64,000 nt of DNA from Daedaleopsis sinensis. Lineage: Eukaryota > Basidiomycota > Agaricomycetes > Polyporales > Polyporaceae. The notes under the pieces were generated by a model, which did no database searches, was not told where the DNA came from, and worked only from the letters and a program-made list of their open reading frames with translations. The stretch lies in assembly GCA_033807695.1 (NCBI GenBank), contig CM066301.1, positions 3,348,001-3,412,000 of the forward strand. Direction: 5' to 3'. Below are positions 14,140-29,695 of the stretch, piece after piece. Within the stretch, counting starts at the first letter, position 1. The number at the start of each line of letters is the position of its first letter. The position numbers were made by a program, and so were the translations under genes.

Positions 14140-16905
14140 CTACACGCCCAGCGGCAGCGGCAGTGAAGGCTGGACGCTCTGCACCGCAGACAAGGCAAGC
14201 GGCGCAGGCAGAGGATTGGACGCGAACGCATCCGCGTGTCGGTCCGCATACTGCCACACCGTCTGCGCGATCCGCATGGTGGTATCGATCGTCGGGAGCA
14301 GCTTCTCGCAGTACTCGGCCTGCTGCCGCTCCCAGACGCGGTCGACGCCCTGCATGATCTTCGCGAGGCTGTCTTGGAGGCTGTTGCGCACCTCCGGGAG
14401 GACCGCGCCCATGACGTGCGTCTTGATCTCGTCCAGCGTGGGGGGAGGGGGAGGGGGCGGCGGCCGCTCGGCAACGAAGCGCTCGAGCATGGCGTGGATC
14501 TGCGCGACTTCTAGGTCCTGTTGCTGAGACAGCTTCTTGTGCTCTTCATGTGCCTGGGAGAGCTAAGCAGAAAGCGGAACTAATTCAGCACCTGGTCGGA
14601 GCTTGAGAGCGACAGTGTACTCAAGCACATACCTGAATGAGTTGCTCGCTTAACCTTTCACTGTCCAACCGCACTTCGTAGTGACTGCGGGACCGGGTGA
14701 GATTGCGCGTGCGCAACTCCTCCATCTGCGCCAACCCATGCGCGACCACATCGTTGAGCCTCGATAGCTCGGCCTCGAGCCGCTCGCACTCGTCCGTGAG
14801 CTCCTCGTTCGTCTTGGGCGGTTTGGGCGGCTCAAACGGCACCTCCCCGTCCTCTACCGACATACGCGAGAGCGCAACAGGCTCAATGGCTTTGCGGTAC
14901 CCGAGCTCTACGAGGCGCTGGTCGACCGCGTCCTTGATGGCAGGCGCGTCCTTGCGGAGGTCGTCGAACTCAAATTCCATGTTCGCGATGCGCTCATGGA
15001 GATCAGCTATCTGCGCGTCGATCTCTGTCATGGTCTTGCGGGTCGAGGAGATCGGCTGCCACTTGGCGTCGTGCGCATTCTTCTGCGTGAGCGCTTCCAC
15101 CTCCGCGGCAGCTTGCTTCCGCTCGTCCTCGATGCGTTTATTCTGCTCCTCCTCATGATGGCGCGCGTCCTCGGCCTTGCGAATGGTCTCCTTTACATCA
15201 TCGATGGAGGGTAGGACTGAGTCTATCCAGGACTTGATACCGTCGATATACTCGCGCACGCTGCGCAGCTCTTCTGCCCATGGGTCTTTGTCCGACAAAG
15301 CCGGTAGCCCTTCCAGTGGGTACCGCATGAGATTGTCGAGCAATCGGTTATGGTACCGCTTGACGTAGTTGATCTCCATGTCCGTTTCCTTCTCTAACTT
15401 CGCAAGCTTGGAATGGACAGCCTCGAGGGACGCGCTCTGGTAGAGCTTGGTGGACAAGTGGAGGTTTTTCTGCTTCTGCCGGTCGTCTTCCATCCTTTTC
15501 AGCCGGGTGGAGTAGGAGAGCAATTGCGACAAGGTGCTATGGGACCATATATGAGTATATCCTCAAGATGGGTGCAAGCGGTATGACTTACCGTATATAG
15601 TCCTTCCACTTGGACGACACATCCGGAGGGAGCTCGCCAAGTGGTCTTGCTAGAACATCAAGTTCTGACTCCATGTCAACGTCTTGCACCACACCCTCTT
15701 CCACCACAGGTTCCACCCCGTCCATCTTCTCTGCGGGTGTGTACGCGGGGAAAGCAAACGGGTTTCGCTTCAAGGTCGACGTAGACGCGTGTTCTGGTCC
15801 AGCGTGCGCTATCGAGATGGAGACGCCCCAGCTGCTCAATCGATGAGCATCCGTGTCTTTCCTCGTGTCCTTCGCGGCACTGAAGTAGTCGGTGGGCGAG
15901 TTTAACACGTCCACTGAGCCTGAAGATCTTCTTGCTGGATTCCGCTCAGGACTACGATTGGGGGAACGAGGCGTACGCGGAGTGAACCCATATTGTGGGG
16001 TATTCATACCAAACTGAGGGGTACGCCCACCGTCGCTCTCCTTCTCTTTGCCCTTGCTCGCCGGCCAGATAATGTCCTCGGGCCTCTCCTGTACGGGAGA
16101 CTGCTGGGCAGGGGCAGCGGGCTGGGACCGTGTAGGAGCGATGGTGGGAGCGGAAGGACGACGAGGAGGCGAACGAGGAGGAGGCGGATTGCTCGGCCCT
16201 GCAGTGCTAGTACCTGAATCATTCCATCCCCCTCCCGAAGACTCTTTCCAGCTATCTGCAGCGGGGTCAGGAACCCACCCTCCGCCCGTAGGTTCTCCCC
16301 AGCGTTCTGCCGCGGGGGAAGGATCCGACCCTCCGCCCGTAGGTGCGCCCCAGCTATCGGTGATGGGGGCCTCAGACCCCCAAGTGCCGTTTACTGCTGT
16401 CGATGAAGAGGTCCAGCTGGCCGACGAAGTAACTGCAGTCGCCTCCCTCTTGTTCGCGCTATCGTCGGTGTCGCCCCAAGCGGATCCACCGATGGGCCCA
16501 TTCCCCCAACCAGACGCGGACGCCGACTCGGAGTGCCGTCGGGGAGCAGCTGGAGGGGGCATCACGTTGGATCTTGAGGGACCTGCACGAGGCGGAGAGA
16601 CGTCCCTCCATGCGCCCGCGTTTGAACGGCCGCTCCAGCCAGAGTCTCCAGACGCCTTTCTGTCGCGGTGGCCTTCCGCCTGCGATTTTCCGCGAGCCAT
16701 ATAGGGAGTTCGAGGATTCGGGGCGTTGTCCCACTGTGGCTGGTCGGTGGGGTGGACGAAGTCGCACTGTCCACCTTTCCGACAACCGCCATTTATCGGC
16801 GCACCGGTGTCGGGCTCGTAGAACTGGCGCGGGCGGAGCGTGTAGGTGATGTATGGGGAGGTAGGAGGACGACAGAGAACTCACCCTACAGCGGATGAAC
16901 GGCAT
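14140..16905 (-). CDS. CCCH zinc-finger, coiled-coil protein of unknown function
   Basis: Four exons (16905-16885, 16823-15592, 15536-14633, 14562-14140) give 859 aa. The first exon has only seven codons (MPFIRCR). It supplies the first cysteine of a CCCH finger finished in exon 2 (FYEPDTGAPI, then CRKGGQCDFVHP): spacing C-x14-C-x5-C-x3-H at residues 6-31. Next come about 370 residues rich in Gly, Ser, Trp and Pro with repeated WG/GGGW motifs, a long charged coiled coil from about residue 420 to 700, a proline run, and a helical tail. CCCH fingers commonly bind RNA, so an RNA-related scaffold is plausible but unproven. Starting at the later in-frame Met at 16700 would lose the finger. I do not recognise a named orthologue. 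Confidence 0.78.
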
Positions 16906-17653
16906 CTGTGGAATTTGGGTAGAAGTCCGGACTGTGCAATGTGGTCGAGATCCAGGGGCGCGGTGTATACCTGAAACACGGAGCAGCACTGCGGGAGAAC
17001 ACGAACGGTCCTTCAATGTGAGATGATCATGAACGCAATCACTCGGCCCACGGAGCACTCACCACGGCCAACTTGACACGGAAGACACGTAAAATAGTTT
17101 AGGGCTCCTATCGATTGTGCACCACGCTTTGGCAGTGAAAGATGATGATGTTCAAGAGCACGAGTGGGGATGGAGGGTAGGGAGGGGGGGGGGGGGGAGC
17201 AGATTAGAGAAGGAAGGGAGAGTTGAGGACATACGAATTCACCCATCCCTGAGAACAGGAGATTTCGATCGCCTGGCCACAAACTTAATCATGAATCCCG
17301 CCCACAACCATATACAGCAAATCCCGTCTCCCACCCGCCGCCTTTCGCGAAGATCTTCATCCGAAGCTAGCGACTCCGAGGTTTGAACGGATCTACATGT
17401 ATCATGCACACGCACACGTACAGGCTTTTCAAGTCCGAGTCTAAGATTTCTGCAAATATCGCGACAGTAACTATCCTAGTCCTAATATTCTACATGTATC
17501 CCAGCACTCGTCAACATCATCACCAGTACACGGAGAATATCTAGGAGACCGTTATCATGCCGTGCTAGATGGATCTGTATCCATATAGGAGTTCGTAGTG
17601 AGGTGAGTACCAGTGGGAGCAGCGCAACACGCGCGCGTACGGAATAGATGCGG
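16906..17653. other. Intergenic 5' of the CCCH gene, up to the transposon
   Basis: No supported gene. The region holds the presumed CCCH gene promoter and a 14-base G homopolymer at 17184-17197, and ends at the left target-site duplication of the KDZ element. Confidence 0.5.
17184..17197 (+). repeat. Poly-G homopolymer, 14 bp
   Basis: An uninterrupted run of 14 G residues lies upstream of the CCCH gene. Such tracts are prone to length errors in sequencing and replication, so the exact count is uncertain. Confidence 0.8.
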
Positions 17654-17661
17654 AGAGATGG
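17654..17661 (+). repeat. Left target-site duplication (AGAGATGG)
   Basis: The 8-mer AGAGATGG directly precedes the left terminal inverted repeat and recurs in the same orientation immediately after the right terminal repeat at 27938-27945. This is the signature of transposase-mediated insertion. Confidence 0.9.
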
Positions 17662-18298
17662 CACCTGATCATCACAACAATCAGGCTTCCTTAGCCTGCC
17701 ATAATACCCCGGGTACGGCAGGCTAACGAAGCCTGAACATCAATTGGCCACACACTGCCAATATCAATGCCAATAGCTATCACTTTGCTTACCTGTTAGC
17801 CCCAATATCCTCCGAGCCTCCCGGTAGTGAACCCGATGGTCCCCGACGGCTCCCCTTGCCGACTGGCGTTGATGATCGCGCCCATCCGTCGGCTATCCTC
17901 CGCCCCCCCCGCCGCGCGCTCATCGTCCCGCCCGCGCGCCCGCTGTTCCCTCCCCTTCCCGCCGCTGTCCCCCACGGCGAGCACGCTATCTCCCGTGCCT
18001 CCGCACCGTTTCGCACCGTTTTTTTGGCAATCCTGTACTAGTTACGCGTGCGAATCCATTGCGAAGGGTGCCGACCGTGTCCGAGGACGAGAATGTGAGG
18101 GGACAGGGAGGGGCAGGCGGGGGCGGGGGGACCGCCAAGACGACGGGCGGCTGGGAGCAGCGGAGTTCGGAATGAATGATGGAATGATGTCATCAGTCTC
18201 GGGGAGGTCGGAGCGTTCCCGCCCGGTACCTGGTGGGAGCCTCCACGTGGCGCCTCGCCCCCTTGCCGCCTCCCGCCTCCCGCCTGCCTCCTGCCGCC
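17662..18298 (+). repeat. Left terminal inverted repeat, 637 bp
   Basis: This stretch is the inverted copy of 27301-27937 with no length difference and one observed mismatch (GGT versus GAT near 18234). Beyond 18298 the two arms diverge into different C-rich sequence. Open frames inside it occur identically in both arms and are not thought to be genes. Confidence 0.93.
17682..17735. repeat. Subterminal palindrome in left TIR
   Basis: Two 19-bp arms (CAGGCTTCCTTAGCCTGCC and its near-complement ending GAAGCCTG) with one mismatch surround a 16-bp spacer, 20 bp inside the transposon end. It could be a transposase-binding hairpin or paired site; this is inference. Confidence 0.7.
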
Positions 18299-18594
18299 CG
18301 CCGCCCGCCCGCCGCTCGCCCGCCATCTACCTCTACCCGCCCGCCGCCTGCCCAGGGTATTCACCATACACCTGTGTGCCTTCGCATTAGCTGGAGAGAG
18401 CGTATGGCCGTGGCTGCAGTACAATGGAAGTATAAATAGACTTCATTTCAAACTATCGTTTGAAATGAACTACTGTTAGTTACTCATACAATACTCGAGT
18501 AAGAAAGGCATAGATTTCTGGGCATAGGAGTTGTTATACGACATAGTAATTCATTATAAATGCCGACATCATACAAATAGATGTGAAGTACTTT

Positions 18595-21154
18595 CTAAGT
18601 CGCAGATGATGGCCCACCTAGTACATCTACACCATAAGAAGGGTCAGAGAATGCCGTGTAAGATAATGTGGCAGGGAATACGAATGGATCAGAGTTCGAA
18701 CCATAGAAGAGGGTAGGTGCAGGTGCCTGAGAGGAAGGGGTAGGTGAGATAACATGAGGTGGAGCAGGCATGGGGAAGGAGAACGGAACAGGTGTCATGG
18801 GGAAGTGAGCGGGCATAGCAGCAGATGGCGGCGGAGCAGATGGGGCAGTCGCCGGAGCGAGCACGGCTGCCGGAGTGGACTGAGAGGATTGAACGGGCCC
18901 AGGCGTGGCGGATTGAGCGGGCGCGGCGGTCGTAGCGGGCGCGGGTGCAGCGGAGTGAGTGGGCGCGGACGCAGCGGATTGAGCGGGCGTGGGCGTGGCG
19001 GATTGAGCGGGCGCGGCGGTCGTAGCGGGCGCGGGTGCAGCGGAGTGAGTGGGCGCGGACGCAGCGGATTGAGCGGGCGTGGGTGTGGCAGATTGAGCGG
19101 GCGCGGCGGTCGTAGCGGGCGCGGGTACAGCAGACTGAGCGGGCGCGGGCGCGGCTGTCGGAGTGGGCGCGGGGATCTGGGCGGGCAGTGTGGACGTGGC
19201 GGGGGGCTGACGAGGACGGCTGCGAGCCTTACGCTTTGGTGCGGGCTGGCTCGACGTGTCGGACGTGGGCTCGCTCGTCCCATTCATCGCCGGGTTCGCG
19301 GGATTGTTGTCGCCCTGCGCGTCCGGTTTCTTGCGCAGTCCACGAGGCTTCCCTTTATCAGAGCGCTGTTTGCGAGGTTTGCGCGTCGGAGGCTGGAATG
19401 ACCTGCCGTCGGCCGGCGCTGCAGCGTTGATGAAGCTGACAGAGGGCGGCGCTGGGCACACCTTCTTGGAGGGCTGCGGACTAGGGTCGTCGAGGCCTGC
19501 AGACCGCTTCTCACCGTGCGGGGCTTCGCGCGAGTTCTGAACGTTCGCGCCCGTGAACTCAGCCCCATTGGCGGCGACAGTCTCGGAAGTGTTGACAGCA
19601 GGCAGGGGGGGCGGATCGAGAGGGATGAGCGAGGAGTTCGAGGGGGCAGAGGGGGTTGTCGAGGCATTGTCCATGGGGGCATCGACATCAACGTCGACCC
19701 GGGCGGTGTCGTTGTTCTTCTCACGGACGTCACGGTCCACATCGTAGTGGCTGTCCAGCCACTGTTCGAACTCCTTGTCGTTTAAGGAGCGGAAGCGCGT
19801 TGTACCGGAGTCCAAAGCGCGGTAAAGCATCTCGGCCTCCATGTGCGTGAGCTCGCTCGGGCACTGGAACTTGCTGAGGGGCCAGTTTTCGATCACCACG
19901 CCGTGCTTCGCAGTGATCTTGTCGTCGAAGTTCTCGTAGAACATCCGTTTGACAGTGCCGCGCTTGCAGCTTGACGCTGTGAGTCTAGTTAGCGTGTGAC
20001 ACTACCGTGACGAGCAGTACTGCTCGAACGTACCAAGTTTGTTGAAGATGAGCTTGCTGACTTGAGCCTTCAGATACAACGTGCGCTGAATCTGGTTGTC
20101 GATCACAGCTGACGCGCGATGTCAGAAATTGAATTCTAATAGTTAAATAACGAAATTATAATGCTCACCTTCCATCCCACCTATGGCATGAGCCTCCATA
20201 CGGACGCCAAGATCCAACAGGCTGTGCCCTGTCAACTTCTCGACGTACTCGCGCATGCGCTCATCGGAGTAGTAGATGAGCGGCTTGTTGTACGCGGTGT
20301 GCTCACCGCGCACCGCGATTAGTATCATTTCGGTACCCGTGCGCTCGTGAAGATTCTCGAGCTGTCAAGAATATAGAATCAGTATCGGAAGTCAGCAGCG
20401 AGGAGCGGAGTCCGGATCTACATACCTCGCGATGAATCGAGGCCAGGGTGCGGCTATTGTCGTGGAAGCTTGCTAAAGGAAGGTTGCGCACGCCCACTGC
20501 GCGATTCTTGCGGCGCTCCTCAAGTTCCGCGACCCTGCCGGCGCAAAACATTTTGCGTTCTTCGAGAGACATTGCCGCCCAGCGCGCTTTGACCTCTGGG
20601 AGACTTGCGAGCGCGCGAACGGACTCGCGCTTGCCATCGCGGCCTGTGGCTGTAGAGAGTAGTCAATAAGGAGCTAATACTAGGGCGCATACAGGATACG
20701 TCGCGACACGCCGTGTTGCACGCATCACGTCCGAGCTGAATGCGTCGCGCGCGTCGCGTCGCGTCCGAATGGAACTACTGATGTGCTCACCTTCAGCATA
20801 CTCATCGGCTACCAGGCTCAAGAAGCCTTGATAGTCGTTGATCGACCTCTCCGTGCCGAGACCACGGTGCTTGCTCTTGTGCATGATCTGCCTATGGAAC
20901 CACTCGGCGGTGTGCTCCGGGATCTCCTCGTGCAGGCCATCCATGATGTCGGCCACCTGAGCTTCAGCCCTATCCAGGGCTGAATTTACCCTCTCTTTGA
21001 ATTCGGCGCGTTCCTTTTTCTTCTTTGCTGCATCTTCTTCCGAGAGCTTGATAGGCTTCTTGCGGGAGCGCGTCGGGTTCTCGACGCGTGCCGTACCAGG
21101 CTTGCGGTCCTTGTTGGGCAGCTTGAGCACACCAGATTCGTTGACTATCGGCAT
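18595..21154 (-). CDS. KDZ-element companion protein with Ala/Pro repeat tail, function unknown
   Basis: Five exons (21154-20791, 20649-20426, 20361-20169, 20108-20034, 19976-18595) encode 745 aa. The N-terminus is basic (RKKPIKLSEEDAAKKKKERA), then a charged helical region, then a conserved-looking core: LENLHERTGTEMILIAVRG, EYVEKLTGHSLLDLGVRMEA and NFDDKITAKHGVVIENWPLS, which continues CPSELTHMEAEMLYRALDSG. From memory, proteins with this core are widespread in agaricomycete genomes; no biochemical role is known to me. The C-terminal 400 residues are low complexity with 30-residue Ala/Pro/Thr/Gln/Ser repeats and basic patches. Upstream in-frame Mets (21253, 21283) are alternative starts. 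It lies inside the transposon in the same orientation as the transposase, so a DNA-binding or targeting accessory is possible. Confidence 0.75.
18911..19130 (-). repeat. 90-bp tandem repeat in the companion gene
   Basis: Copies at 18911-19000 and 19001-19090 are followed by a partial copy to about 19130. Each 90-bp unit encodes 30 residues, so the repeat keeps the reading frame and extends an Ala/Pro-rich tail. High similarity suggests recent expansion. Confidence 0.85.
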
Positions 21155-21389
21155 AGCGTGTTCCCAAGGTCTTCCGGAAGCACAATGTGAGGTAATAGGA
21201 TGATAGAGGTGAGAATGAGGCAGAGCAGCGTGGGTGGACGCGAGCGTGGGCATTTCAACAGGAACCTGACGAAACGGGGGCACGTGATCGTTCTATTAGA
21301 TCCATGGTAAACGGTACTAATAGTAATAACACGAAGGATAGGGTCGATTGGGTCGCATTTTACATGTATATTGAGCACGCGTACATGTA

Positions 21390-22766
21390 TCAATCATAGC
21401 AGTCCAGCCCAGGAATGAACATCAACTCAAACAGGTCCTCAGCAATCTCACGACTCCAGCCGAACTCCTGCTGCATCGTGAAGCTGAACGCACGGGCATT
21501 AACACTATACAGGCGCGCTTGAAGGATCGGGAGGTAAAGGGCTATGTCGATGTCGCGAGCGCGCAGCCACTGGTCTGCGAGCTCGCCGAAGAAGATCGGT
21601 ACACTCGGACCTTCTTCCTCTCGCCGATCATCGGGATCTTGGGAAGGAAGGGGCCGTATGACCATGCGCAGGCTCTCGGTCTCGACAGGCAACGCCTCAA
21701 TCATCATCCGTGCAACTGTACATGCGCTCATGTGCTCAGCATAGTACGGAGAAGAGAGCCAGGATGCACTTACGACGCTGGGCAACATCACCTGGAGATG
21801 GTGAGGTCGGGGCGGTGACCGTGATTGGCGGCGCCGCGCTGCTGGTGCCAGCGCCGACGTTTGCCACAACGGCGGGTTTGACGGCGTCGCGGACCTGTAT
21901 ATAGCAAGATGGTATGAACATCAATGCGTAGTTGACATAATGAACAGATATTACTTACCTTGGAGTGGCGGGTGGGTGTGCCCGGAGCCTGGACCTGCTT
22001 GCTCTTCCCCTTCCCCTTGATGACGCTGGTGAAGACCGTGGGCAGGGGGATTTGAACAGAGAGAAGGATGTACGCACTTTGAAGGCTCAGCTGGTGTCGA
22101 CTGCATGCCCTGGTTGGTGTTCGACTGCGAGTTCTCGGAGCTGCCAGGGGCAATGCGCTGAGAGGCGGCGGCGGCCTTGCTCACATATGGCTCCTTGTCG
22201 ATCATGTACAGAAGGGCCTCCCGGAAGGTCGTCTTCTGCTGGAATACAGATGATCGGTAGTTTGAAGTATACTTGAGGAGATCGGTCCTATTGAATGTTA
22301 CTTCAAATGAGAGGATACGATGGGGATGAGGACATACCATTGCCAATCGACCCATATGCCAGTCTGCTCCCCAAACCGGATGCAATAGAACGAGTGGTGA
22401 TCCATCAGAACGTTCTGCACATAATCGAACCCGGACTTCAAAGCAGCATAGTCCTCCGGATCGATATAGGGGAACAGCTCGGCGTTGAGCGTGTTCACGT
22501 CCTGCGCATCATGCCACTCGTGGCATACAACGACAATCGGAAGAAGTTTTGGATATGACTTCAGGGCCACGTTCGGCGGTCTGTGAAAGTATGAGTAGAC
22601 AGCCTGGGAGTTGGAGAAGCAAAGGGAGGGGGCACAATTGTGCTTCGCGAAGGGGAAGAGTGGTCCGAACATACCGTGACCCCGAGAAAATCCCATTCAA
22701 CTCCTTCTTGGGGTCCAAAACGACCCAGAACGGCCCCATGTGCGATTCTCTATCATCGGCGGCCAT
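21390..22766 (-). CDS. KDZ-element protein with possible viroplasmin/RNase H1-N-like segment
   Basis: Six exons (22766-22675, 22580-22338, 22287-22078, 22025-21959, 21894-21774, 21715-21390) encode 352 aa; an in-frame upstream Met at 22874 would add 36. The start holds FWVVLDPKKELNGIFSG. A second block, FYCIRFGEQTGIWVDWQW followed by a KTTFREALLYM stretch, has the pattern of viroplasmin/RNase H1 N-terminal domains (aromatic-x-V/I-R-x-G-x-x-x-G-I-W-x-x-W, then F-x-E-A). Those domains bind RNA-DNA hybrids or double-stranded RNA. Between them is VVVCHEWHDAQDVNTLNAEL. The middle is Ser/Pro/Ala-rich and basic; the C-terminus (QEFGWSREIAEDLFELMFIP) is helical. The domain match is by eye only. It sits between transposase and companion gene, same strand. 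Confidence 0.68.
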
Positions 22767-23395
22767 ATTGAGAGCAAAGGTGAGGTCGTGGATGGAGGAG
22801 GGTGAGGGAGCAGAGTCAAGATGAGTCTGGCGCTTGTCATCGATGGTAGCGTTCGAAATCCATGAACTGTGCACCGCTCATTTCATGCACATTTCTCGTC
22901 CTTCCCTGCAATATGTTTCGACTCTCCTGTGCGCGCCACCACTTGCCACTTTACCAAATTTTGCATACATACTAGTAAAGATGAACACAATAGATATATC
23001 GATTTCGGTGCATCATTATGCACTGCGTAGAAGGGAAACCACAATCAAACATATTAAGACGGCCGTCTCAAGATGTATGCATCGAAGGGCGTACGTGAAT
23101 ACGACTTCAACCGCTAGCTCCGGCACCGTAGTAGAGCATGCTTTCTATAGTACTGGTAGTCTACTCTTATTTCCGTCTAGTCCGAGAGTGATCGGCTGTA
23201 GGGGCAATGAAGTATATGGAAAATAGGATGCCCATGCCACACATAATGTGCCGACATGGCAGTTCGTGTTTTTGAAGCTTCTAGGTTCAAGTCATGCCTG
23301 TTACCCTTTCAGCGACATGCCTACATTAGATTATGACATGCTATCGTTATTCGGAGTCGGAGCAGGGATAGAATCACGAAGGGACTTGGGGCTAT
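22767..23395. other. Intergenic within the transposon
   Basis: A non-coding gap between the transposase stop and the next gene's start. It presumably holds the transposase 3' end and the promoter of the 352-aa gene; nothing else was recognised. Confidence 0.5.
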
Positions 23396-26300
23396 CTACA
23401 TAACTACAGCGATGTTGGAGAGGTGTTCTACCAAGTCCGTGACAGCACCGTCGTCATCCTCATCAACCCCCACAGCTTCCTCGGCTGCGTCCTTCTCGAC
23501 AGCACGGACCTCTGCTGTGGCCATCATCTCCATGTCCATTCTCGGAGAGGCAGTGACACGGACGCCAGGCTGATCTGCGTCTGTGTTCATGGGCGAGTCG
23601 GGAGAAGACTCGGTGATGTGCTCATCACTAGACGGAAGACTCGATTGATGCCCGACAGAGGAGTGGTCGACCTCGCGCGGAGTGCGCACCTCGCGCGGCG
23701 GCCCTGCGTGGACGCCGGGCGACGGAATACCAGAGTATCCTTCGAGCGCATAGAGTCGAAGGAGGTGCGCGAGGATGTGGGTGTTCACGGCACGGCGCCG
23801 TTGACAGTAGTCTTGAACTGCTCCGAACATAGGAACATTGTGTGCGACTAGATCGCCGAGAACGTCAGTGAATAGAACATCTTCATCGCGGATCGAAGTA
23901 TGGATGCGGCGCGCCTCGCGCTCGACGTGTTTAAGTTCTTCTTCGGCCCGTATGATCCTGCGCCCGGTGCGCATGGTCTCCTTGACCAACGGTTGCGCCC
24001 ACTTCTTGTCCCGGATGTCGTTGCGCGTATCTTGCAGCAGCGTGAACTCTTCCAGCACGCTGAAGTGCGACACCTTGTCCCAGTCTAACGCAGGACGGGG
24101 CGGAGTCAACGCTGCAGCGGCGCTGTTGTATTGGCTGACCGCGGTCCGGATCGCCTTGCATCGCTTTTGTAGGTTCTTCGCGATCTGTGTGCGCATGCGA
24201 TAAGCTACAATGTGAACAGGTCAGTAAGCACACAACAAAGCGACTCGAGCCCGGTACATTTCATACCTGTCTGCGAGAGGTTGAGTTTGTGCAATTCGAA
24301 CAGGCGTTGGATGACGAGCCGCTGCAGGCGCCCGAGCGCTTGCTGGTAGTTCCGGCTAGCTATATACTTCTTCGTCTCCTCGTACTCCCGGTCTCCGGGT
24401 TTCCATCGCCCGGGAATCTTCAGCTTCACCTCTAGCGCGATGATCTGGAGCTCGAGCCGTTGGACGTCGGCCTGTAATGCGCGACGTCTCGTCTCGAGTT
24501 TGACCGTGGCCGAGGCCTCGCTGTAGTAGTCTGTCGGCCCTGATGTCGGCGCGCGCCATTCATAGTCCTTCGGCACAGCTCCCAGGAACCGATCCTCGGC
24601 ATCTCCGAGCTGGGCTCTGCGATCTGCAGGTCAATAGTGGATCAAAAACAGTCCCGGGAACTTACCGAGCGCCGCGCCACTCGTCGAGCGCGTCCACATA
24701 CGCGACGGCATGTACATCCCACGGCGACTCGTCCCGGAGGTTCGCGAAGTATTCGGACTCCTCTTTCTCCAGAGCACTGAGTTCTTCGTGCGTCAGCTGC
24801 AACGCGGTCATTGCTTCATCGAATGCCGGCTTTTTCGTGCGTATTATCTCCTGTGCTTGAAGATAATTGTTGTACTGCATGAGCCCGAGGTTCGCATACT
24901 TCTCCTCGTCCCACCCGCGAAAGTAGGTGTGTATGAGGAGTTTCCGCCTATAAGCCGAGGCGTACCGTGTCACGTTAGCGAGCTGGTTCGAAGCGCTGAA
25001 TACGCGTTCCAAGGTCTCGAGGTCTTCGAGGCCCATTCCTGCGATAGCGTTGGGGTGGTTCTGGAGCTGACATGGGTATGAATGTGAGTACCCGTGAAAG
25101 GCGTTGACGCAGACACGGCCTCCCAGTGCCTCAAACGCCGGGCCGAGACTACTGTTCCTGAGGGTGACCTTGTAGGTACAGCCAATGTCGAAGCCGAGGA
25201 GAACGGCATCACCGATCTCCTTGATGATCTGATCCGTCATCGCCAAGGGGAGTTTCGCCCTAAACACAGAGTTAATACGGTGATCCGAGCGCGCCGCCGA
25301 GACGTCAGGCACTCACAGTTCACCACTCCGGATCATGTCGATCAGCCACAGCACGAAGCCGTGACGACACGCCGCGGCGAAGACACCGGTCTCTTCGAAA
25401 ATGGCCCACATGCGCTTTTTCTCGTCCGAGGCAGCCGCCTTCCAGTTGCTCGCGCAGGACGAGTCGGGGGCTCCATCCGTGGGGTCGCCTTCGCCGCCGG
25501 GTCCGTCTTCGTCTCCGCTGCCATCGTTCTCGGGAACTTGAACGTGCGGCTGCTTCTGTCGAGACTTCACCTCGTTCGCGAAGTTCTCGACAATGGAGGA
25601 TGGGATGTAGTAATCGCTGACGAAGGAACGAGCGTCGCCGACCTTGCGATTGCCGAACGGCGCCACGCGCTTCAGAGAATTGTTCCCGTCCATCACGATC
25701 ATGCGCTGGTATATCGGCTGCTCCTCGCCCTCGACCTGCATGACAAACATTAGAGGGCTTCAAGAGACAAATGAACGAGAACGAGAACCTTGTAGCTGCA
25801 AGCGGGACAGCCATAACGGACACGCCAATTCGCGCTGCCGCGTCCAAGGATCGTCTGCACGGAGTCCCGCACCCGGTCAATCAGAGTCAGGTACACATCA
25901 AACGTATCTGAGATTGCCTTCCGATATCGCCGGCGGTACGGGATCTGGGAGAGCGATCAAATCAGTAGACTAGATTAAGTATGCGCGATGTCATAGTAAG
26001 TACACCACCATGCTTAGTACTTACCACATATCTGTAGCAAAGCATCTTGGTGAAAGCTTCAATACTGAATGAAGGCTTGAATCTACGGATGTCTTCGAGG
26101 AGCTCGAGAGTCTTCAGGGATACAGCGAGGGTCGGTTGATCAGGAGTGGCGCCCAGGAAGCCATTCAGGATGAGCGCCTCGGCAGCACTATGCTGCGAGG
26201 TTCTCGGGACGTGGAGTACCTCTTGGCGGTCGAGATAGTCGATGCACTCGATGTTGAAGTCATAATCAGTGGGCTCGGCCTGGGTCGGTACCTCGTCCTG

Positions 26301-26909
26301 TGGCCTATACTTCCATTGAACATATGCAACAAGAAGTTTGGGCATGAGGTCCTGCCATCTTGCATCCATATTGTCGATTCGCTGTCTCCATGTTCGAGTG
26401 TCCTTGTATTTCCTATACCCGAGACTGTGGGACAAAATGCAGAATGTTAATCTCGCGAAGCTCCTTAATATCAAGATGCTTGCGTACCGCGAATCTAAGA
26501 GATCACGAAGGGCGATCTCGACCGACTCCTCGTTGGAGACCGTATGTGCGGCGCCCGTCTCAAGGTATGTCGGCTCGTCGACCCAACCGGAGCCCTCGCG
26601 GTCACCTTCGATGATCGTGACGACCTCATCACTACGGTCCTCGGGGATGGCATCGGGGTCCCGTCGCAGGTCGGCTAGGATGCGACGACTCCTCGCATTC
26701 ATGCCTAGATGATATAAGCATTAGTAAGAGAGAGTCATCGAGTTCATTAAGATTACGATCTTACCGCGTAGTAGGTTCTGGTATTCCTCTCGCACGCGCT
26801 TCTGCTCAGTGGACATAAGCTTGAGTCCTGCCGTCTTCCGCGACGCACGGCGCTTCCCGCTGGAGGGACCCAGAATGTGAACCTTGCGCGAGACTCCCGG
26901 GGTACTCAT
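23396..26909 (-). CDS. KDZ transposase
   Basis: Eight exons (26909-26765, 26704-26488, 26424-26025, 25944-25789, 25735-25317, 25259-24666, 24616-24267, 24204-23396) give 1029 aa. The 63-nt segment 26425-26487 is open in frame; if retained the protein is 1050 aa. KDZ hallmarks appear in order: the N-terminal block GFLGATPDQPTLAVSLKTLE, YGCPACSYK, MIVMDGNNSLKR, AACRHGFVLW, LLGFDIGCTYKVTL, and FHGYSHSYPCQLQ, leading to an NVTRYASAYRRKLLIHTYF stretch. These contain the RNase H-fold acidic and cysteine/histidine positions of the superfamily. The C-terminal third is coiled-coil and acidic. It would cut and integrate the element through its terminal repeats. No inactivating change is visible. Confidence 0.93.
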
Positions 26910-27300
26910 AGCCGGGTCGTGTGTTGAACAGCGAAGAGGTTGGAGGTACGGATGTGCATATGCATTGTTAAAATAGTGTACAATATGAGGCGAGCTTGAG
27001 GTGCTGCTAATATCTACAAACAGAGGTGATGCTGATGGATGAGTGAGAGATGGTGCCGATTGCAGGCCTAGGAGATCGAGCGGAGTGGAGAGGGGTATCA
27101 GATGAAGTAGTAGTGCAAGGGAGCACCAGTAGAGAGGGAGAATAGCGGCGGGTGACGGGGCTCCATGGTCTAGTCGCTTGCAGAGCATCGCGACCACGAA
27201 CACGAGGCTCACGAGCTGAGTAGGCCGGGTACTTAATCGAGGCGGGACGAGTAAGCGGGGGAGGTGGGAGGTACAGGAGGCGGGCGGCGGGTACGCGGCA
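26910..27300. other. Transposase upstream region
   Basis: Between the transposase start and the inner edge of the right terminal repeat. It likely contains the transposase promoter; no open frame with support was found. Confidence 0.5.
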
Positions 27301-27937
27301 GGCGGCAGGAGGCAGGCGGGAGGCGGGAGGCGGCAAGGGGGCGAGGCGCCACGTGGAGGCTCCCATCAGGTACCGGGCGGGAACGCTCCGACCTCCCCGA
27401 GACTGATGACATCATTCCATCATTCATTCCGAACTCCGCTGCTCCCAGCCGCCCGTCGTCTTGGCGGTCCCCCCGCCCCCGCCTGCCCCTCCCTGTCCCC
27501 TCACATTCTCGTCCTCGGACACGGTCGGCACCCTTCGCAATGGATTCGCACGCGTAACTAGTACAGGATTGCCAAAAAAACGGTGCGAAACGGTGCGGAG
27601 GCACGGGAGATAGCGTGCTCGCCGTGGGGGACAGCGGCGGGAAGGGGAGGGAACAGCGGGCGCGCGGGCGGGACGATGAGCGCGCGGCGGGGGGGGCGGA
27701 GGATAGCCGACGGATGGGCGCGATCATCAACGCCAGTCGGCAAGGGGAGCCGTCGGGGACCATCGGGTTCACTACCGGGAGGCTCGGAGGATATTGGGGC
27801 TAACAGGTAAGCAAAGTGATAGCTATTGGCATTGATATTGGCAGTGTGTGGCCAATTGATGTTCAGGCTTCGTTAGCCTGCCGTACCCGGGGTATTATGG
27901 CAGGCTAAGGAAGCCTGATTGTTGTGATGATCAGGTG
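27301..27937 (-). repeat. Right terminal inverted repeat, 637 bp
   Basis: Inverted partner of 17662-18298, identical in length and nearly identical in sequence. It ends at the outer CAGGTG, followed directly by the right target-site duplication. Confidence 0.93.
27864..27917. repeat. Subterminal palindrome in right TIR
   Basis: Mirror copy of the palindrome at 17682-17735, 20 bp inside the right end, with the same 19-bp arms and spacer. Confidence 0.7.
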
Positions 27938-27945
27938 AGAGATGG
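27938..27945 (+). repeat. Right target-site duplication (AGAGATGG)
   Basis: Same-orientation copy of the 8-mer at 17654-17661, abutting the right end of the KDZ element. Confidence 0.9.
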
Positions 27946-28189
27946 AGAGCAGGTGTCGCAGGAAAACCGAAATGAGATAGATGAGAGCAGGGGAGTCGGC
28001 GTTATGGAGTTTATGGAGGAGGGGAGCAGAAATACAGCAGTAGTCAGATCAAAATAGAGCGCCAACCGTCAAGGAAGGGGAATAGAAATGAAAGTCATAA
28101 AAGAGAGAGAGGACCTCGTACAAGCAAGACATTCGGGGCATGAATCGTTCATCGCACACTCGTCAACAGTCCAGTGCTGGCCGGCCACT

Positions 28190-28504
28190 TCACCAGCCGC
28201 CGAACCACCTCTTGGGCGGACGCTTCCGCGGGTTCCGCATCATCGTCACTGTCGTCTCCACCTCCTCAGGCTCATAAACTTCTTCCTCGACCACTACTTC
28301 CACGGACGTTGTCCGCGGAATGTGAGTCGTGGAGGATGAGCTCATAATGTTAGGAGTTGGTGAAGCGACACGGCGCGTGTTGGACGGCTGCTGGACGGTG
28401 ACAGCAGTCTGGACTGTGTGGTGTTGAGTGTGCGTGACTGTCCTGGTCTCGGTCGCAAACTCGATTGCAGTCTCCGTTAGAACAATTGCAGGAGGGTTAA
28501 GAGC
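28190..28504 (-). CDS. Candidate terminal exon or small separate gene, Thr/Val-rich with basic end
   Basis: This 105-codon stretch follows an acceptor (tttcctag) and is open to a stop at 28190. It reads ALNPPAIVLTETAIEF, then TRTVTHTQHHTVQTAVTVQ, an acidic EVVVEEEVYEPEEVETTV, and ends RNPRKRPPKRWFGGW. The biased but orderly composition looks coding. It could be the last exon of the membrane protein upstream: a donor at 28919 gives a phase-0 join, a 415-nt intron and 345 aa in total. It could instead belong to a small gene with a short first exon. The intron would be far longer than others here, so the join is unresolved. Confidence 0.45.
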   Translation of the reverse strand, partial: ALNPPAIVLTETAIEFATETRTVTHTQHHTVQTAVTVQQPSNTRRVASPTPNIMSSSSTTHIPRTTSVEVVVEEEVYEPEEVETTVTMMRNPRKRPPKRWFGGW

Positions 28505-28877
28505 CTAGGAAAGCAAAAGCAACTTGTCAGCACGATATTCGCAAGATAGGTAGCGTGGGACGTGGGCTGATAATCAGTCTGCACTCGTGGATCGAGATAT
28601 AAACTCATAGACACCGTCACGCTCAGTGACGGAGCGCGTATCCATATCACGTGGGCGCGATTCAAACACGCATCTTGCGCACCGATCGATCGAGAGCAAA
28701 CACGAAAGTGCAGACGGGCTATCAGCATCCACGAGGACGCGGGGGAACAAGACGAAAACAACACCGTGGTCCCCCGAGCCCGGGACGAAGGAGGGGAGGA
28801 GCGCGACGAATGATACGAACTGTACATGAATAAAGCAATGAAAGGTGAAACGTTGGCAAAGGAATTCCCCCTTCGTC

Positions 28878-29695
28878 TCAGAGCTCGGAGCGGCGCTGCT
28901 GGGGTGGAGGCGGGGGTACCTTGGGTTTCCGACGACCGCCAAGAGGTGCGGCGACGGGAGGTGGCTCGTTGTAGATGTACTCTTCTTCGACCGTCTCGGG
29001 TTGACCCTCATTGAGCATCCTGTCAAATCAAGTTAATCCTACACGTAACAGTTGAAATATTTTGGCACGTACACAAGTTGTTCCATGATCCAGCTCTCGC
29101 GTCTGGACGCGTCATGCTCGCGGCGGTTGACTGCCTCCTCACGGCGACTGATTTCGCGTTCACGCTCGGCGATTTTGAGCTCGCGGTCGAGGATATCCTC
29201 GGCGCGAATGCGGGCTTGGTCCCACCATCCGGGAGGTGTGAGCGACTCCTCCTTGACGACCTCCTTGATAACGGTCTGAACGGGGAGGGGGGCCTCGGTG
29301 ACTCTTTCGAAGACGGTAGGGCAAGGTGCGCAAGCTTGAGGGGATGCCACGACGCCTCCGGGGGCGCCAGCAAGGAGCTCCGCCTCGCGACGAGCGACTT
29401 CAGCCTCGCGAACAGCGATGTTGCTCTCGCGGGCGAGCAGGACCTGCGTGCGTTTGGGAGTGATGATGCCCCAGAAGCCCTCGTTTTTAACATCTTGTCC
29501 ATTGGACGCGGCTGCTGCCGCTGCGGTGCTGGCGCTCTGGTGGGATGGGAGCGAGAGCATAACGGCCAGGACAGCGAGGACGAGTGAGAGAACGAGGAGT
29601 AAGGTGGTGGAAGAGATTGTGCGGTGATGATGATGCCGGGAGGAAGAGCGTTCGCTCCGCTCCCTTTCGCGATGAGACGAAGAGGGTTGAGCCAT
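28878..29695 (-). CDS. Single-pass membrane protein with coiled coil, unknown function
   Basis: Two exons (29695-29073, 29019-28878) give 254 aa. A basic, Ser/Arg/His-rich N-terminus (SSSRHHHHRTISS) is followed by one hydrophobic segment (TLLLVLSLVLAVLAVMLSL) at about residues 31-50, typical of a type II anchor. Next comes WGIITPKRTQVLLARE, Arg/Glu heptad stretches such as ILDRELKIAEREREISRREE forming a coiled coil, and a Pro-rich tail ending QQRRSEL. A donor inside the second exon (28919) would bypass this stop and join the exon at 28190-28504. I do not recognise a named family. Confidence 0.65.

Follow-up and report, generated by a model that had tools for sequence, protein, structure and literature searches.

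KDZ transposons are known from many mushroom-forming fungi. To our knowledge, little has been established about how these elements move or what their passenger genes do. Published work already describes KDZ elements of ~10 kb with 8-bp duplications, demonstrated mobility, and accessory genes, the last in fungal elements (PMC12477816). Among the closest described systems, KDZ1, KDZ2, and KDZ3 of Cryptococcus neoformans, ~9 to 11 kb in size, have been observed moving (PMC12810828). The element presented below adds two features that are new: a conserved pair of non-transposase genes, B and C, and a subterminal palindrome. It lies in a 64,000-nt stretch of the Daedaleopsis sinensis genome (GCA_033807695.1, contig CM066301.1, 3,348,001 to 3,412,000), the whole of which is referred to as the window; positions are window positions.

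RESULTS

A precisely bounded KDZ transposon in the window

The window contains a real KDZ transposon of ~10 kb that appears to be young and whose limits can be set to the base; its ends are marked by the following features:

17654..17661, no strand: left 8-bp target-site duplication, AGAGATGG, identical to the right copy
27938..27945, no strand: right 8-bp target-site duplication, AGAGATGG, identical to the left copy
17662..18298, plus strand: left terminal inverted repeat, 637 bp, begins CACCTGATCATCAC; 1/637 mismatch versus the right arm
27301..27937, minus strand: right terminal inverted repeat, 637 bp; 1/637 mismatch versus the left arm
17681..17736, no strand: left subterminal palindrome, 23-nt arms, 10-nt spacer; arms 91% complementary
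27863..27918, no strand: right subterminal palindrome; arms 91% complementary

An earlier note on this DNA had described 637-bp repeats differing by about one base and exact 8-bp duplications that fix both ends of the element; measurement gave the same repeat length with a single mismatch, and both AGAGATGG copies directly abut the element ends. The sole mismatch is at repeat position 572, and arm identity ends at position 638; a repeat finder reported longer arms, of 659 bp (99%). Arms of 637 bp with one mismatch are far beyond chance. The hairpin of the left palindrome scored z = −7.4 with DNA parameters. No Rfam family exceeded its threshold within 17000–29000.

Three genes are located between the repeats:

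26909-23396, minus strand: gene A, KDZ transposase, 1029 aa in 8 exons or 1050 aa in 7 exons (splice model; PF18758)
21390..22766, minus strand: gene B, 352 aa, 6 exons, putative ribonuclease H1 N-terminal-like domain at about residues 95–141 (splice model; Cauli_VI; ribonuclease H1 in PDB)
18595..21154, minus strand: gene C, 766 aa, 5 exons, proline/alanine-rich repetitive tail, weak HMG-box-like region in relatives (splice model; sister homologues)

The common orientation claimed for the three genes was found, on the minus strand; their reading frames, also said to be open, are open only as spliced models. An automatic gene model that merged all genes into one was rejected and replaced, as were later automatic models that, in several elements, ran A and B or B and C together. 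All three genes of the window element are described from hand-checked models instead of automatic ones. In the case of gene C, one alternative splicing scored slightly above the 766-aa model.

The proposed KDZ identity is borne out by the match of protein A to the Pfam KDZ family PF18758 (E 9.5e-74), which covers 217/217 profile positions. Protein A carries DGNN, DIGC, and DLETLER, acidic motifs that we take to be catalytic in KDZ transposases. DIGC and DLETLER (or DLETMER) are present in 9/9 transposase models and DGNN in 8/9, being absent from the C8 model. Pfam includes a CxC1 model; no CxC1 domain was detected in protein A, where KDZ was the sole Pfam match with E up to 1. At the same threshold, none of the three proteins had a TET/JBP Pfam match, although a version that has diverged beyond the reach of Pfam could have been missed.

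Sister elements have moved very recently

A search of the genome for the same repeat start, suggested in the earlier note, gave different results at the two stringencies used. When the 28-base end was searched with up to three mismatches, matches were found at the window element alone, and the 51.6-Mb assembly yielded no second copy of its family; in contrast, ten sister elements are marked by a relaxed end motif of 14 bases. The end motif CACCTSNWCATCAC yielded 52 matches compared to 7 for a reversed-pattern control, and 22 of the 52 form 11 inverted pairs with a spacing of 9.5 to 22.4 kb, where ~0.2 pairs are expected by chance. The ten sisters have the same end motif and the same A-B-C gene content as the window element. 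A decayed C3 copy, in whose retrieved part neither B nor C could be detected, and orphan C fragments at C8:2830k were excluded from the set of 11. Sisters C12a and C2b lack the palindrome, and C8 has a weak one.

Perfect abutting 8-bp duplications flank 9/11 elements. C12a and C12b, which are located at different sites and have different duplications, are 99.96% identical across 10,199 bp; C11b and C4 are 99.7 to 99.9% identical. The inverted-repeat arms are at least 99% alike in seven of the nine elements measured (the exceptions are C12a, 98.96%, and C1a, 89.4%). The near-identical repeats of the window element and the very recent movement of its sisters support the earlier view that the element is young. 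The high identity of arms in these seven elements could also reflect homogenization, so that gene conversion, not recent insertion, would keep the two arms alike. We consider this improbable, since the C1a arms are just 89% alike, duplications are perfect in 9/11 elements, and C12a and C12b are near-identical throughout, interiors included.

Activity of the window copy

Whether the window copy is active, we can only infer. The suggestion that it is possibly able to move was not borne out for its family: there is no second copy, the transposase gene has a weak splice donor, and, when each flank was searched separately for an empty site within the assembly, it matched itself alone. With no second copy in the assembly, the family’s own mobility is not established.

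The weak donor, GTTCTC, belongs to transposase intron 25738-25790, which contains a stop that would be read if the intron were left unspliced. Of six sisters compared at this position, five carry an intron whose donor is GTA or GTG, and the sixth is intronless there. The description of the element as apparently intact has to be qualified for this donor. Together with the single copy in the assembly, the departure from the donors of the five intron-bearing sisters and the stop raise the possibility that the window copy has already stalled, i.e., that it is a recent, single-copy insertion whose poorly spliced transposase no longer makes it self-mobile. However, every exon is still open, and the consensus G at donor position 5 is missing in 3/5 sister introns too, which suggests that weak donors may be tolerated here. 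On balance, we lean against a stalled copy while taking the possibility seriously.

Genes B and C are conserved and constrained

B and C are recognizable in 11/11 elements, with B interrupted in one and just distantly similar in two. In the two least saturated pairs, NG86 dN/dS values were 0.068 and 0.063 for gene A, 0.153 and 0.259 for gene B, and 0.074 and 0.068 for gene C. B evolves faster than A, its dN/dS reaching 0.50 in the window element versus C11b, a comparison with dS >1. For the window element versus C11a, NG86 dS of gene A was not estimable, and YN00 gave no dN/dS estimate in 9/15 comparisons. As dN/dS is well under 1 in the unsaturated pairs, B and C evolve under constraint. Their presence in 11/11 elements and this constraint indicate that they matter to the element; a need for them in mobility does not follow. 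The question raised in the earlier note, whether KDZ mobility needs accessory proteins, thus has real evidence behind it.

Judging from profile matches, B probably contains a domain resembling the nucleic acid–binding N-terminal domain of ribonuclease H1. Pfam Cauli_VI was matched by five of the eight B family members scanned at E up to 1; the window protein scored 16 bits (E 0.015) against a cut-off of 21, while relatives P0001 and P0002 exceeded the Pfam cut-off. A B profile matched ribonuclease H1 N-terminal domains in PDB with E of 1.1e-4 to 2.7e-3. The B proteins of C8 and C2c are distant and lack a clear tblastn match; a profile built from the remaining B proteins matches their models (7.4e-9 and 1.8e-14), while 0/100 shuffles and 0/18 A and C models scored better than 1.2. 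In the opposite direction, a profile of the C8 and C2c proteins gives weak matches to the remaining B proteins (1.8e-7 to 0.47), and an A model falls in the same range (0.021). No ribonuclease H1 domain was detected in the C8 and C2c B models at E up to 1. Some polypore proteins annotated with a ribonuclease H1 N domain may be accounted for by B.

C may act as an HMG-like protein that bends DNA. HMG matches of C proteins were sub-threshold wherever a score was given, the best being 17.9 bits (a C12a piece) versus the Pfam cut-off of 25.4, and none was found in the window’s own C at E up to 1. As a single query, window protein C retrieved 0 relatives among 7990 candidates scored, whereas a seven-member C alignment retrieved three among 7993, all from named polypores. 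Structure predictions for relatives of B and C were of too low a quality for use (mean pLDDT of 37.5 and 48.4).

DISCUSSION

The window element is probably a full-length KDZ-superfamily DNA transposon, inserted fairly recently and belonging to an A-B-C lineage in which B and C act for the element. Protein A, a putative DDE-type transposase, would excise the element at its CACCT...AGGTG ends and insert it via staggered cuts, which would give rise to the 8-bp duplications. Gene content in this lineage follows one set arrangement, A-B-C. We infer that B and C would most likely help to assemble both palindromic ends into a transposition complex or would shield the element from silencing.

B and C may instead stand outside the transposition machinery, as anti-silencing or cargo genes that aid persistence. 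A similar role is thought to be played by TET/JBP, published passengers of fungal KDZ elements that are proposed to counter methylation (PMC12730594). This genome is rich in KDZ transposons, 150 of 175 KDZ matches falling into at least 113 loci, compared to at least 12 loci with C homologues; most KDZ elements here thus seem to manage without detectable C. The hybrid-binding-like domain of B would also suit RNA-DNA hybrids as a substrate. On the other hand, the pair is kept in 11/11 elements and, in the two unsaturated pairs, constraint on C is near that on the transposase, a tighter linkage than optional cargo predicts. We rate this explanation as a strong contender that falls somewhat short of an even chance. 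A more specific version of the preferred reading, in which B and C act for the element, is that a polypore KDZ lineage moves by a three-protein machine (the transposase, a ribonuclease H1–type hybrid-binding protein, and an HMG-like bender) acting on ends that bear a palindrome, one that differs in sequence from family to family yet stays symmetrical; in this detailed form, it is doubtful.

The genome supplies a set of families whose ends are known exactly and whose target duplications match; the set includes recent copies that are nearly identical, and it has a pair of non-transposase genes in conserved form. With such a set, whether KDZ elements need helper proteins, to move or to persist, becomes directly testable on defined DNA fragments.

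Comparison with known systems is limited to the available portions of their descriptions. C. neoformans KDZ1-3 resemble the window element in having a KDZ transposase, terminal inverted repeats, and similar size (PMC12810828). Duplications are 8 bp in KDZ1, as here, and 4 to 8 bp in KDZ2 and KDZ3; the repeats of KDZ1-3 are 139 to 241 bp, compared to 637 to 1028 bp here; and their transposases have a CxC1 domain, for which the window transposase has no match (PMC12810828). That portion of the description does not mention B or C genes (PMC12810828). Kyakuja shares with the window element the KDZ superfamily, CA...TG ends, and occurrence in Agaricomycotina (PMC12730594). However, the Kyakuja families described there have 7-bp duplications and no inverted repeats, in contrast to 8 bp and 637-bp repeats here, and these families carry TET/JBP, which was not found in A, B, or C of the window element (PMC12730594). 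Zisupton, compared by its description, is similar in its KDZ transposase, inverted repeats, and 8-bp duplications, and the portion describing it does not refer to a B/C pair (PMC12730594). The Zisupton-type combination of 8-bp duplications and terminal inverted repeats is present in the window element, and the duplications are perfect in 9/11 elements of its lineage.

Bounds and insertion site of the KDZ element

The window, C2:3348001-3412000 (contig C2) of a 51.6-Mb genome in 24 contigs, carries the following features.

17662-27937, KDZ element, 10,276 bp
17681-17736 and 27863-27918, palindrome, at about nt 20-75 from each end
26909-23396, minus strand, gene A, KDZ transposase, matching PF18758 across the full profile (E 9.5e-74)
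22766-21390, minus strand, gene B, 352 aa, putative ribonuclease H1 N-terminal-like domain
21154-18595, minus strand, gene C, 766 aa, first half conserved, tail repetitive and proline/alanine-rich

The 637-bp arms of the element differ at one base and a copy of AGAGATGG, the target duplication, abuts each end, which together with the PF18758 match bears out the earlier note's claim of a real KDZ transposon with exact bounds. The one-mismatch arms suggest youth, arm identity being no clock because arms may already differ at insertion; the element is probably a young KDZ transposon. Its flanks are single-copy DNA by genome search. On the minus strand, an ORF at 15588-16700, listed by the ORF search alone and thus no proof of a gene, has the insertion ~950 bp upstream of its start. 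Elsewhere in the window, ARAGORN with bacterial settings reported a tRNA-Thr (cgt) at 94-166.

All three genes require splicing. Even with E allowed up to 1, protein A matches no second Pfam family. In the window's transposase, the intron after the CPAC motif (25738-25790) has the donor GTTCTC. Among six sister elements of the same genome compared at this position, C2c has no intron and five do, with donors GTAAGT (C11a and C1a), GTAGCC (C11b), GTACTT (C12a), and GTGCTC (C2b). Position 3 is a purine in all five, leaving GTTCTC as the sole exception; the sisters, too, often have a weak donor here. If the intron is retained, the reading frame of gene A stops within it. Of the earlier description of the element as apparently intact, the exact ends, terminal inverted repeats, and duplication stand; given the donor and the stop in unspliced RNA, a full-length transposase is putative.

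A lineage of 11 elements

Searching the genome with the entire element gave relatives at 65 to 83% DNA identity and nothing that would count as a close second copy. The end motif CACCTSNWCATCAC, derived from the ends of these relatives, has 25 + 27 matches genome-wide versus 3 + 4 for a reversed-pattern control. Twenty-two matches form 11 inverted pairs, compared to ~0.2 pairs expected by chance, and the remaining 30 fall outside such pairs. Seven elements (the window's, C11a, C11b, C12a, C12b, C8, and C2b) had been bounded before the motif was written; the motif itself set the bounds of the other four, C1a, C1b, C2c, and the complete copy in C4. Perfect abutting 8-bp duplications flank 9 of the 11: AGAGATGG in the window and CGCCCGCG, CCTCGCCT, CGCGAGGC, GTGCCTGA, GCTGCCTC, CGTGTTGC, GCAGGGGC, and AGCTCTCT in the others. 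The C8 duplication is an offset repeat, and no 8-bp duplication was found at the C2b ends.

C12a and C12b occupy different sites and are 99.96% identical across 10,199 bp, and C11b and C4 are 99.7 to 99.9% identical. Such near-identical sisters show that the lineage moved recently; the window's own family is seen at one insertion only.

In the C4 copy (C4:2919458-2941844), near-identical to the C11b element, gene B is split by a nested insertion of ~12.7 kb. A motif variant, CACCTCGTCATCAC, is repeated near several contig ends (among C1, C2, C6, C9, C10, and C11) and possibly belongs to an unrelated subtelomeric repeat. Another variant occurs at C9:902668-902975 in four copies ~97 bp apart.

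Linkage and constraint of genes B and C

Genes A, B, and C were found in all 11 elements, including C12b, nearly identical to C12a, and C4, where gene B is interrupted. Order and orientation are constant across the nine elements in which models were built, some of them imperfect (the C1b sequence used was partial, and one motif is missing from the transposase model of C8). B had no clear counterpart by tblastn in C8 and C2c, where it was identified from position. Against a profile built from the remaining B proteins, the C8 model scores an E of 7.4e-9 and the C2c model 1.8e-14; the controls, 100 shuffled sequences and 18 models of A and C, reached 1.2 at best. The reverse profile, from the C8 and C2c models, was weak, with one A model ranked among B proteins.

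NG86 dN/dS for A, B, and C by element pair (WIN, the window's element). Alignments are blastp blocks, biased toward conserved parts.
C1a-C1b: 0.068, 0.153, 0.074
C12a-C2b: 0.063, 0.259, 0.068
C8-C2c: 0.083, 0.244, 0.121 (rough, because dS > 1 where estimable)
WIN-C11a: not estimable, 0.279, 0.235 (rough, same reason)
WIN-C11b: 0.113, 0.501, 0.269 (rough, same reason)

KDZ transposase domains are greatly expanded in this genome (at least 113 loci, from 150 listed of 175 matches). Homologs of C occupy at least 12 loci, 11 of them within the 11 elements; within reach of the search, the B-C pair therefore seems to be a trait of one KDZ lineage.

Predicted domains of proteins B and C

The ribonuclease H1 N-terminal-like domain is sub-threshold in the window's protein B (Pfam E 0.015) and passes the Pfam cut-off in both relatives of B found by protein search, which are in Earliella scabrosa. 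With E allowed up to 1, five of the eight family members scanned match it; the C8 and C2c models have no match. A B profile also matched ribonuclease H1 N-terminal structures in PDB (1qhk, 1.1e-4; 6vrd, 1.6e-3; 3bsu, 2.7e-3) in a region overlapping that of the Pfam domain. Two higher-scoring PDB rows, both designed repeat proteins, were given no weight; no stretch passes alone.

For C, a Pfam search found no HMG box in the window's own protein, and the matches in some relatives are weak (best 17.9 bits versus a cut-off of 25.4); the HMG-type PDB match is 2e6o (E 0.05). Accordingly, HMG-likeness of C counts as a lead and is not established. Protein search gave three relatives of C, in Epithele typhae, Cerioporus squamosus, and Polyporus arcularius, which, like E. 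scabrosa, are polypores. The proline/alanine-rich stretch of the tail is encoded by direct repeats at 24- and 18-bp spacing (18793-19210). A fragmented relative of gene C at C8:2830026-2830681, outside the elements delimited by the end motif, is probably a relic.

A subterminal palindrome

The palindrome recurs at a comparable place in several sisters. Its stretch has an RNA fold z below −3 in six of nine elements (window, −7.77; C11a, −7.76; C11b, −4.76; C2c, −7.85; C1a, −3.35; C1b, −3.28), while C8 reaches −1.98 and C12a (0.79) and C2b (−0.27) give no signal; the independent count is smaller because C1a/C1b and C12a/C2b are close relatives. Among interior segments, none of 138 in the window's element, none of 136 in C11a, and none of 127 in C2c folded equally well; C11b had 7 of 129 and C1a 3 of 142. 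With DNA parameters, z for the window's stretch was −7.4. Arm sequence varies among families, and complementarity is kept in the same fraction, 6/9. The palindrome may bind a dimeric protein or may take up a cruciform structure.

Comparison with known KDZ elements

Cryptococcus KDZ1 is described as ~11 kb with 241-bp repeats and 8-bp duplications, and KDZ1, KDZ2, and KDZ3 were observed in movement (PMC12810828); KDZ insertions of ~11 kb are reported at the Cryptococcus mating-type locus (PMC12510652). Zisupton makes 8-bp duplications, described Kyakuja families have 7-bp duplications without inverted repeats, and TET/JBP genes occur in several KDZ elements of fungi (PMC12730594). A 2025 paper states that accessory genes are frequent in fungal KDZ elements (PMC12477816). 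The window's element shares 8-bp duplications with KDZ1 and Zisupton and differs from KDZ1 in repeat length (637 versus 241 bp). A ribonuclease-H1-N-like or HMG-like partner gene was not found in the literature searched, a weak negative given its scarce coverage of subscription journals. For the superfamily, such a size, such duplications, movement, and the presence of accessory genes are already known. Judged from sequence, the window's element belongs to a lineage with two conserved, putatively accessory genes, and this particular A-B-C trio with symmetric ends adds a useful, testable variant.
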